A stretch of 64,000 nt of DNA. Origin: Solicola gregarius. Lineage in GTDB: Bacteria; Actinomycetota; Actinomycetes; Propionibacteriales; Nocardioidaceae. The translations under genes were made by a program, and so were the position numbers. Positions within the stretch are counted from its first letter, which is position 1. Every line of letters begins with the position of its first letter. The notes beneath the pieces are model-generated. The model was not told where the DNA came from and did no database searches. It saw only the letters and a list, made by a program, of their open reading frames with translations. Positions 32,879-35,458 of this stretch are shown here, in pieces. The stretch lies in the NCBI RefSeq assembly GCF_025790165.1, contig NZ_CP094970.1, positions 2,046,001-2,110,000 of the forward strand, given 5' to 3'.

Positions 32879-33925
32879 ATGGCACGCTGGGTTCTCCATG
32901 TCGACATGGACCAATTCCTCGCGGCCGTCGAGATCCTGCGGCGACCCGAGCTCGCCGGTCTGCCCGTCGTCGTCGGTGGCCGCGGCGATCCGACGGAGCG
33001 GGCGGTCGTGTCGACGGCGTCGTACGAGGCGCGCGAGTTCGGTGTCCGGTCGGGCATGCCGCTCAAGACCGCCGTGCGCCGGTGCCCGGATGCGGTCTTC
33101 CTGCCGGTCGACTTCCCCGTGTACGAAGCGGCATCGGCGACCGTGATGGAGACGCTGCGCACGTACCCAGGCACCGTGGTCGAGGTGCTGGGCTGGGACG
33201 AGGCGTTCGTCGGCGTCGCGGTCGACGACCCGGTGGAGGCGGCGCACGGGCTGCAGGCGGCGGTGCTCGAGGCGACCCGGCTGCACTGCTCCGTCGGCGT
33301 CGGCGACACGTTGGTCAGGGCGAAGATCGCGACCGATTTCGGCAAGCCCCGCGGCGTGTACGTACTGACGAAGGACAACTGGATGGAGGTAATGGGCGAC
33401 CGCCCGACCACCGCCTTGTGGGGCGTCGGCAAGCGGATCGCGCAGCGTCTCGACGACGTCGACATTCGCACCGTACGCGAGCTCGCGCACTCCTCCGAGG
33501 AGGCGTTGATCGCGGCATTCGGTCCGAACACCGGGCCGTACCTTCGCAACCTCGGCCGCGGTCTCAGCCGCGCCACGGTCGACGACACGCCGTGGGTTGC
33601 CCGCGCACACGGGCACGAGACGACGTACCAGCAGAACCTCACCGCGACCGACGAGATCTCGGCGGCCGTGCGGGCCCTGTCCGATCAGGTCGTCGCCGAC
33701 CTCCGCTCCGAGGGTCGTGCCTGCATGCGCGTGCACCTGAAGGTGCGGTTCGCGCCGTTCTTCACCTTCACCCGCGTACGTAAGCTGGCCGAGCCGACGT
33801 TCGACCCGGCCGTCATCGCGCAGACCGCGCTCGAGCTGCTCGCCAAGCTCGACGACGACCGGCCGATCCGACTGCTGGGCGTACGAGGCGAGATGGTGCC
33901 ACCGGAGGGCGGATACGAACGCTGA
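32879..33925 (+). CDS. dinB: DNA polymerase IV (Y-family translesion polymerase)
   Basis: 348 residues. Palm motifs: HVDMDQFLAAVE (metal Asp 9, steric gate Phe 13) and VLGWDEAFVGV (metal Asp-Glu), followed by CSVGVGDTLVRAKIATDFGKP and the helix-hairpin-helix LWGVGKRIAQRLDDV. The little-finger domain ends IRLLGVRGEMVPPE. The S(I/W)DE motif is GWDE here, as in the actinobacterial DinB2-like branch. No beta-clamp motif is obvious at the C-terminus. No LexA box was seen upstream, so SOS control is unproven. Confidence 0.92.
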   Translation: MARWVLHVDMDQFLAAVEILRRPELAGLPVVVGGRGDPTERAVVSTASYEAREFGVRSGMPLKTAVRRCPDAVFLPVDFPVYEAASATVMETLRTYPGTVVEVLGWDEAFVGVAVDDPVEAAHGLQAAVLEATRLHCSVGVGDTLVRAKIATDFGKPRGVYVLTKDNWMEVMGDRPTTALWGVGKRIAQRLDDVDIRTVRELAHSSEEALIAAFGPNTGPYLRNLGRGLSRATVDDTPWVARAHGHETTYQQNLTATDEISAAVRALSDQVVADLRSEGRACMRVHLKVRFAPFFTFTRVRKLAEPTFDPAVIAQTALELLAKLDDDRPIRLLGVRGEMVPPEGGYER

Positions 33926-33969: not shown

Positions 33970-34653
33970 TCAGGACCGTCGGGCGATCTCGGTCTTGACC
34001 GTCTCGTGCAGCTCGTCCGACGTGAAGCCGAGACCGCGCAGGATCTGCGCGGCCGGGCTATCCTCGGCGCGGATCAGGCCCAGCAACGAGTGTTCCGTGC
34101 CGACCCGGTCATGTCCGAGGTCTGTCGACGCGCGCAGCGCCTCCTCGATGGCCACCTTGCTCTCCTCCCGGAACGCGATGTGACCCCGCGGCGCCTTCGT
34201 CCCGGCCGGCGGCATCGCTTCCTCGATCGCGTCGCGGACGCCTTGCTCCGTCGCAGGTTTCGTCAGCATCTCGTACGCCAGGCCCTGTGGTTCCCCGAGT
34301 AGGCCGAGCAGCAGGTGTTCGGTGCCGATGAAGTCGTGCTTGTGCGTACGGGCGGCCTCCTGCGCCAGCACGATGCTGTGCCGGTTCAGCTCGGTGAACC
34401 GGTCGAACGGGGTGGAAGCGCGACGTTGCTGAGCGGCCTGCTTCGACACCCCGATGGCGTCGCCGATCTCGGTCCACGACGCGCCGCTCTGCTTGGCCTT
34501 GCTGACGTAGTGGTCGACGAGCTGGTCGCCGAGATCGGTCATGGTCTGTGAACGAAGGTGCGCCTCGCTGACGCGCGCCAAGGCATCGGCGTCCGGGAGT
34601 TCTGCGTCGAGACGGGAGATCAGGTCTGCGAGGCTGATATCGAGTGGGCTCAT
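33970..34653 (-). CDS. HTH plus Clp N-terminal double-repeat regulator
   Basis: 227 residues. The N-terminal third has an HTH (KAKQSGASWTEIGDAIGVSKQAAQQRRAS); the rest holds two Clp-N repeats (IVLAQEAARTHKHDFIGTEHLLLGLL and VAIEEALRASTDLGHDRVGTEHSLLGLI in pieces). There is no AAA+ ATPase part, so it is not ClpC. Clp-N repeats bind arginine-phosphorylated or damaged proteins in ClpC, so a stress-sensing repressor is a fair inference. The promoter carries two identical CGTCAA-N7-TTGACG palindromes, the inner one touching the start codon, pointing to autorepression. Confidence 0.85.
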   Translation of the reverse strand: MSPLDISLADLISRLDAELPDADALARVSEAHLRSQTMTDLGDQLVDHYVSKAKQSGASWTEIGDAIGVSKQAAQQRRASTPFDRFTELNRHSIVLAQEAARTHKHDFIGTEHLLLGLLGEPQGLAYEMLTKPATEQGVRDAIEEAMPPAGTKAPRGHIAFREESKVAIEEALRASTDLGHDRVGTEHSLLGLIRAEDSPAAQILRGLGFTSDELHETVKTEIARRS

Positions 34654-34654
34654 G

Positions 34655-34701
34655 CGTCAAGCGTAGATTGACGATCGAGCGACGTCAATCTGTAATTGAC
34701 G
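34655..34701 (-). promoter_or_regulatory. Promoter with two identical CGTCAA-N7-TTGACG operators
   Basis: Palindromes at 34655-34673 and 34683-34701 have identical 6-bp arms and 7-bp spacers, 28 bp apart. On the minus strand, TTGACG (34688-34683) and TACGCT (34665-34660) are 17 bp apart, an almost ideal -35/-10 pair. Transcription would start at or next to ATG 34653, so the transcript would be nearly leaderless and the operators would block it. Confidence 0.7.
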
Positions 34702-34723: not shown

Positions 34724-35458
34724 TCACTGATCGCGGGTCAGCGCCCGTAGCTCCGCCTGGTATGCCGCGTACACGCGTCTCAAATCGGCCGCCGGCCACT
34801 CGCGCGGGAGCAGCGGACCCGGGAGCAGCGGGTCGGCGGTCAGGTGGCGTACGACGTGCGCGGCGACCGCGAGCCGCGCCGCGGGTTCGGTCGTGGTGGT
34901 GAGCAGGTCGCGCAACGCGCAGCCGCGGGTCGACCAGCCGGCCAGGTCCCAGAGCCCGGCCGCGAGCTCGGCCGGGTCTTCGTCGGGCACTGCCCGGAAC
35001 GTGGTGAGCACCGGGTCGGCGGCGTACTCGACCGATCGGCGTAGATTCGCCGGTCGCGTCCACACGCCCTCGCGAAGCTCGGCGAGACGGTGCGCACTCA
35101 GCGCCTCCCGCAGCGATGCGCGGTCGCCGCCGGGCCGGCCGGTGACGACGATGACCGCCATCTCCCAACTGCCGTCCCAGCGGGTCTCGGCGTCGTCGAT
35201 GCCCTCGCCCTGCCGCCGCTGTCGTTCGACGAGTCGCGGTCCCAGCGCGTACCCGCCGTCGGCGCGCCGGAGGTCACCCGCCGAGACGGCGCGGCTGAGT
35301 GCGGCCCGAACCGTCGAGGCCGAGATTCCGAAGTACGCGCCGGCGCGGATGAGCGCTCCCGGGCTCATCGGATCGGGATGCGACCCGAGCAGCAGGCTGA
35401 GCACGACCGATCGAGCGGGAAGGGTCGTCGGGTCGTGCTCGACACCGGTCATGGGCAT
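34724..35458 (-). CDS. PaaX family transcriptional regulator
   Basis: 244 residues from ATG 35458 (or ATG 35452). The N-terminal winged helix is SVVLSLLLGSHPDPMSPGALIRAGAYFGISASTVRAALSRAV in pieces; the PaaX central and C-terminal domains follow (GVWTRPANLRR, LWDLAGWSTRG, DPLLPGPLLPREWPAADLRR). PaaX proteins repress aromatic catabolism and sense CoA thioesters. It is divergent from an acyl-CoA dehydrogenase/hydratase operon, with interleaved palindromes between, so it probably controls that operon with an acyl-CoA as inducer. Confidence 0.9.
   Translation of the reverse strand: MPMTGVEHDPTTLPARSVVLSLLLGSHPDPMSPGALIRAGAYFGISASTVRAALSRAVSAGDLRRADGGYALGPRLVERQRRQGEGIDDAETRWDGSWEMAVIVVTGRPGGDRASLREALSAHRLAELREGVWTRPANLRRSVEYAADPVLTTFRAVPDEDPAELAAGLWDLAGWSTRGCALRDLLTTTTEPAARLAVAAHVVRHLTADPLLPGPLLPREWPAADLRRVYAAYQAELRALTRDQ

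Follow-up and report, generated by a model that had tools for sequence, protein, structure and literature searches.

Two palindromes with the same arms stand directly before a gene whose product joins a helix-turn-helix (HTH) to a Clp_N domain, in the 64,000-nucleotide stretch of Solicola gregarius DNA analysed here (the window). The arrangement raises two questions: whether the protein switches off its own gene from these sites, and which of its two parts would then read the DNA. For mycobacterial ClpC2, autorepression, the operator, the twin sites and the leaderless promoter are already known; what our analysis adds concerns the identity of the DNA reader. The features of the locus are collected in Table 1.

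Table 1. Genes, domains, operators and predicted promoter elements at the ClpC2-like locus (window positions)
Feature	Positions	Strand	Remarks
ClpC2-like gene, 227 aa	33970..34653	-	Pfam Clp_N E 6.4e-25; 8ADA match; predicted leaderless
HTH part of N-terminal domain, residues 46-78	34420..34518	-	Structure models; predicted recognition helix ~70-78
Double Clp_N domain, residues 83-227, ClpC1-NTD fold	33973..34407	-	Pfam and model compared with 3fh2
Promoter-proximal operator CGTCAA-N7-TTGACG	34655..34673	.	1 nt before start codon; exact match CGTCAAGCGTAGATTGACG
Distal operator CGTCAA-N7-TTGACG	34683..34701	.	28 bp from proximal operator; exact match CGTCAATCTGTAATTGACG
Predicted -35 TTGACG	34683..34688	-	Inner arm of distal operator; read from sequence
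Predicted -10 TACGCT	34660..34665	-	Inside proximal operator, 17 bp from -35; read from sequence
PaaX-like regulator	34724..35458	-	Upstream neighbour, outside the system
Y-family DNA polymerase	32879..33925	+	Convergent neighbour, outside the system

The earlier note on this DNA had described two exact CGTCAA-N7-TTGACG palindromes, their starts 28 bp apart, with identical arms and spacers. The sequence confirms the pair, its distance and the identity of the arms, while the spacers are alike only in length (both 7 nt) and differ in their letters. On the minus strand the order is TTGACG (34688-34683), 17 bases, TACGCT (34665-34660), TGACGC and ATG, and the start predicted from this reading is the A of the ATG at 34653, 7 nt past the -10. 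The earlier proposal of a TTGACG-N17-TACGCT promoter starting on the ATG is thereby borne out as a predicted placement, and the spacing of the two elements predicts leaderless transcription of the ClpC2-like gene.

From letter frequencies, 0.0016 exact sites would be expected in the window and 0.12 in the whole genome. When up to two mismatches are allowed, the window holds 7 matches against a mean of 3.5, an unremarkable count, attained in 9 of 100 shuffles; what is notable in the window is the exact pair alone. In the genome-wide motif search that had been suggested as a check, the window pair proved to be the sole exact N7 sites of the 4.9-Mb single-contig genome. Allowing one mismatch gave 18 N7 sites (both exact ones counted) versus 10 for a reversed-pattern control, which would leave room for a few weak additional targets.

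By sequence comparison the encoded protein is a ClpC2 homologue, with an N-terminal HTH followed by a ClpC1-type Clp_N domain. Residues 11-69 match the N-terminal domain of Rv2667 (ClpC2; 8ADA, residues 4-72, phmmer E 2.7e-8), and the Clp_N model aligns with 3fh2 (Z 25.6, rmsd 1.3, 145 residues aligned). The C-terminal domain is thus a homologue of the ClpC1 N-terminal domain, with its fold and pocket; the AAA modules of ClpC1 are absent and the ORF stops at 227 aa. For the HTH, the full-length model has helices at residues 60-67 and 71-76 (mean pLDDT 71 over residues 71-80), and the model of the domain alone has them at 60-67 and 71-79 (mean pLDDT 85 over residues 71-80). The window HTH stays below every Pfam HTH cut-off (best 16.2 versus 27 bits), and Foldseek returned no match at E <=0.001 for the N-terminal domain alone. 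In VIA-align the same domain reached Z 6.7 at best, and most of the 50 rows listed were HTH proteins that bind DNA, the aligned part lying around residues 41-83.

Taylor et al. 2023 (PMC10030653) report that mycobacterial ClpC2 represses its own gene through twin sites at a leaderless promoter, citing pull-down, EMSA, reporter and knockout evidence. Their operator is the pseudopalindrome CGTCAAC-n5-GTTGACG, located 1-2 nt before the ORF and often twinned; ClpC1, by their account, shows little specificity for it. The window locus shares with mycobacterial ClpC2 (Rv2667 and its M. smegmatis homologue) the domain order, the six-base arms and their spacing, the twin sites, the distance of 1-2 nt from the start codon and a predicted leaderless promoter. 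It differs at the seventh operator base, which departs from the mycobacterial one in all four arms whereas the outer six are exact in all four; the R189 position is occupied by D178, and the inter-domain linker looks shorter than in mycobacterial-type rows. Because the anatomy matches, the locus would be another member of the ClpC2-type system. Autorepression by an HTH-ClpN protein that sits on twin sites at its own near-leaderless promoter, the core of the earlier note, has thus been demonstrated for the mycobacterial homologue, and by analogy the window protein very probably switches off its own gene from the twin operators.

Two other protein types have an HTH that resembles this one. The RelI antitoxin (Rv2664) is distantly similar to the window protein (9sdc, E 0.005), and the HTH region common to RelI and ClpC2, together with a set of short HTH proteins, has already been noted (PMC13284704). 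According to that article, RelI adjoins the RelS toxin and has no Clp_N domain, and inverted repeats were looked for ahead of the gene without success. A RelI-type antitoxin was considered for the window gene and rejected, the flanking genes being those for the PaaX-like regulator and the Y-family polymerase, with no RelS toxin as neighbour. Sigma factor region 4 has broadly the same kind of HTH, with weak fold matches and, for a stand-alone HTH paralogue described below, a sub-threshold Pfam score (E 0.0012); these weak scores are all that speaks for common descent. Region 4 itself recognises -35 boxes of the TTGAC type.

Mechanism and signal

We have considerable confidence in an autorepressor of the ClpC2 type, in which HTH dimers on the twin operators shut the predicted leaderless promoter and a Clp_N ligand releases them. 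The N-terminal domain would dimerise, each dimer reading one CGTCAA-N7-TTGACG palindrome with one half-site per HTH, and two dimers side by side would cover the -35 and -10 and so close a promoter built from operator arms. The Clp_N domain would serve as a decoy copy of the ClpC1 pocket for substrates and antibiotics. Once a suitable ligand is bound, cyclomarin in the mycobacterial case and perhaps unfolded protein, the hold on DNA would be lost and the gene would fire, the newly made protein soaking up ligand like a sponge. What the sequence comparisons show is the anatomy, its conservation and the tie between the operator and the HTH; from these we infer the transfer of mycobacterial behaviour to Solicola gregarius, the role of the HTH as base reader and the passage of the signal to the HTH.

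The sensing step has been characterised with antibiotics. Cyclomarin A releases mycobacterial ClpC2 from DNA and raises clpC2 mRNA 263-fold, and ClpC2 protects mycobacteria against this compound, which hits the essential ClpC1 protease (PMC10030653); it is because ClpC2 blunts such an attack that sensing and DNA release matter. All 55 rows of our close-homologue alignment keep the equivalents of the cyclomarin contacts F83 and F161; E170 varies. Ecumicin and ilamycin are reported to bind Mycobacterium tuberculosis (Mtb) ClpC2 without inducing it (PMC12913811), which indicates that pocket binding alone is not always enough.

The natural signal may instead be damaged or arginine-phosphorylated protein bound by Clp_N, rather than a peptide antibiotic, an option that we entertain only tentatively. 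It would suit the two GTEH motifs, whose glutamates are conserved across the window protein and 54 homologues (E112 in 54/55 rows, E187 in 55/55). Such glutamates form phospho-arginine pockets. Casein protection has also been described in mycobacteria, as has an approximately twofold rise of clpC2 mRNA on heating, although casein bound only at high micromolar ClpC2 (PMC10030653). Against this option stands the 263-fold effect of cyclomarin, and the invariant F83 and F161 equivalents would fit either signal. The link between protein damage and transcription put forward in the earlier note is possible but weakly supported, the heat induction speaking for it and the cyclomarin A induction against it, both in mycobacteria. 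As to arginine phosphorylation in particular, the McsB kinase family PF00217 had no match in the genome, nor did the control in any of 14 genomes, and this signal finds no support here.

One-piece and two-piece relatives

The same genome holds a second locus (G000:C1:1158709-1158968; L006 1486-1760, minus strand), where a stand-alone HTH gene is followed by a separate Clp_N gene. The stand-alone paralogue (71 aa, G000:C1:1158709-1158921) passes Pfam HTH_23 with 25.9 bits against a cut-off of 24.6, and is preceded by twin operators of the form CGTCAA-N6-TTGACG, CGTCAATAAAGGTTGACG and CGTCAATCTATATTGACG, of which the closer lies 2 nt before the start. We found no description of such pairs of an HTH-alone gene and a Clp_N gene in the open-licence PMC literature. 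With fused and split versions both occurring in nature, binding assays can address directly which domain is the DNA reader; these versions also predict a simple residue-to-base rule.

We compared spacer lengths at 152 HTH loci, made up of the window genome's own two, relatives from the order and a sample of the phylum; 1 of 41 matches of one search was left out, as were roughly twelve of another's weakest matches. Of the 34 fused genes, 31 are preceded by the exact GTCAA-N7-TTGAC site and none by the N6 form; among stand-alone genes N6 precedes 71/110 and N7 2/110, and the remaining 8 of the 152 loci are other fusions. Spacers of 0-5 and 8-15 nt combined yielded a single site in the 152 upstream regions, an N5. 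A Clp_N gene starts within ~150 nt downstream of the stand-alone HTH in 74 of 110 cases, and in 59 of 60 in a later sample.

That later sample comprised 80 loci from genomes unused before, namely 20 loci from a set of 30, whose other 10 belonged to genomes already used, together with 60 new-genome matches. The latter were hand-picked down a best-first list, among the matches listed, with some skipped (e.g. G474, G514, G481 and G355), and were chosen before their upstream DNA was read. Scored in the GTCAR form, fused genes carried N7 in 20/20 cases and stand-alone genes N6 in 59/60, in a sample that is non-random and biased to close relatives because it was hand-picked from the best profile matches.

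Exact GTCAA-N5-8-TTGAC sites are missing at 45 of the 152 loci; some of these show altered twins, and 13 have nothing recognisable by eye. Ten stand-alone HTH loci (L087, L088, L090-L092, L094, L095, L098, L157 and L158) have, by eye, twins with changed outer arms, GCAAC...GTTGAC and GTCAAC...GTTGC.

On a tree of the HTH the architecture changes once and the spacer once, so the N6/N7 association amounts to one event however many genomes display it. This tree is a FastTree of a short domain, but a fairer guide than Fisher values on the 152 loci, which ignore relatedness. The stand-alone HTH of L220 shares the helix QGAQQR with the fused L131 and L136 and is accompanied by three N7 sites, which suggests that spacing follows the HTH subtype and not fusion itself.

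Might the two systems of this genome be cross-wired, the stand-alone paralogue binding the clpC2 sites or ClpC2 binding the paralogue's N6 sites? The half-sites are the same at both loci, and an exact scan for CGTCAA-N4-10-TTGACG found 5 sites in the genome (reversed-pattern control, 2), namely the twin sets of the two loci and a single N10 site. The N6 and N7 spacers, however, differ consistently by architecture and would turn the half-sites relative to each other, which suggests insulation; we therefore think cross-wiring unlikely. The same scan led us to reject a wider regulon. The lone exact CGTCAA-N10-TTGACG lies at G000:C1:1981327-1981348.

The DNA-reading domain

In the account of Taylor et al. 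(PMC10030653), the N-terminal domain is a dimerising four-helix bundle and DNA reading is placed in Clp_N, in a helix that carries R185 and R189; neither 'helix-turn-helix' nor 'HTH' occurs in the main text of that article. The R185A/R189A change weakens DNA binding by the Mtb protein, and its M. smegmatis equivalent raises clpC2 mRNA 2.0-fold (PMC10030653). The ligand and proposed DNA sites adjoin, an arrangement that would explain release simply (PMC10030653). These mutants indicate that Clp_N may touch DNA or steer the HTH.

Other data in the same article fit this proposal less well. First, the N-terminal crystal fragment (8ADA) is a proteolytic cut that ends at V72 (PMC10030653). Rv2667 V72 aligns to V69 of the window protein, just before SKQAAQQRR, the second HTH helix in our models; the fragment thus lacks the predicted recognition helix, ending where it would begin, and we counted this for the HTH as reader. 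Second, R57A in the N-terminal domain derepresses 4.6-fold, more than the arginine pair does, and from an EMSA run on just the C-terminal domain the authors conclude that a dimer is needed (PMC10030653).

We then turn to conservation in 35 fused proteins, an alignment of fused proteins with an exact N7 site and 9 of the 55 close homologues; fused loci without an exact N7 site (L120, L126 and L159) and some others were left out. Mean entropy is 0.68 over residues 57-77, the lowest of the regions compared, versus 1.64 for the proposed Clp_N helix. With Mtb numbering mapped from F172 and E181 of PMC10030653, the R185 position is arginine in 27/35 and the R189 position in 20/35 (not arginine in 15/35). 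Both arginines are absent from 7 of the 35, operator-bearing like all the rest since at least one exact N7 operator was the basis of their choice. The window protein keeps an arginine (R174) at the R185 position and has D178 at the other, which is D, E or A throughout the 55-row close-homologue alignment.

Lastly, the half-site base tracks residue 73 of the predicted recognition helix. Among the 152 loci, those with A73 have a symmetrical GTCAA site in 99 of 136 cases and a symmetrical GTCAG in none, and those with T or S73 have GTCAG-N-CTGAC in 7/9, one of which (L199) has GTCAA too; GTCAA is also present at 7 further loci, where residue 73 is G or unread. The later sample agrees for A73 (GTCAA 76/77, GTCAG 0), and by eye GTCAG half-sites can be made out at each of its three S73 loci, with 1/3 passing the strict rule and 2/3 keeping GTCAA in one proximal arm. 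The match has exceptions: G occurs in 10 of 408 half-sites of A73 loci and A in 9 of 30 half-sites of T/S73 loci, and a loose count puts G half-sites level with or ahead of A half-sites at the A73 loci L148, L166, L183 and L221. On the tree T/S73 changes 6 times and G half-sites 9 times, yet only 2 well-supported independent pairs relate the residue to the half-site; both agree (p 0.5).

At loci with two GTCAG sites, the lone remaining TTGAC half-site is the inner distal arm, the predicted -35, in 6/6 cases. The loci L082, L083, L093, L180, L187 and L195 have GTCAG-N6-CTGAC with T or S73, and the -35 arm is TTGAC in all six.

Reading of the operator by Clp_N through its two-arginine helix, with an N-terminal domain that only dimerises, thus has the arginine mutants on its side, whereas the operators persist in proteins lacking both arginines and before HTH genes with no Clp_N domain. 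We regard it as improbable. The HTH as DNA reader, an assumption of the earlier note, fits our sequence-based comparisons better than the published Clp_N proposal does, with Clp_N contributing in some way. The comparisons favour the HTH, not Clp_N, as the part that reads the operator, with the weak independence on the tree borne in mind. Beyond this locus, there is probably a broad actinobacterial repressor family in which a small HTH reads the DNA. ClpC2 would form one branch and split HTH and Clp_N genes the other, both using the same -35-like half-site, with N7 in the fused and N6 in the split version. Residue 73 would set base 5 (A for GTCAA, S or T for GTCAG), and the TTGAC half-site kept in S/T73 loci would be the -35.

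Conservation and distribution of the operators

Of the 56 loci that a scan for close relatives gave, one is a ClpC1; the other 55 genes, at 72-83% identity, come from Streptomyces, Actinomadura, Microbispora and others. Both operators are exact upstream of 52 of these 55, and with one mismatch tolerated both are present upstream of 54; the exception, L059, was matched from residue 24 onward only and showed no operator. In the 40 of 54 homologues that share one register, the arm columns are 98-100% invariant, the distal left arm by construction as these rows were picked by that arm. Across the same 40, 21 of the 23 spacer and linker columns are 38-85% conserved, and only the T and A columns of the -10 reach 100%. 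The window gene thus extends a mainly mycobacterial finding to relatives in Streptomyces, Actinomadura and Microbispora.

An origin of the palindromes by chance, from promoter sequence rich in TTGAC, an idea to which the double use of the inner distal arm as -35 lends some colour, can be dismissed with near certainty given their exactness, the conservation of the twin before the homologues, and the 186 N6/N7 sites in the 152 upstream regions, compared with 0.03 per shuffled set (single-letter shuffle) and none in the downstream control regions of the same loci.

The PaaX-like and polymerase genes occur in none of the 55 close-homologue flanks (<=1.5 kb, tblastn E 1e-5). At E 1e-35 the window gene had no match in one other genome of the genus or in 35 other genomes of the family, and it was matched in 2 of 21 genomes of the same order. 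Horizontal gain of the window gene is possible on these sequence data; its GC3 is 0.855, and that of the neighbours 0.857 and 0.894.
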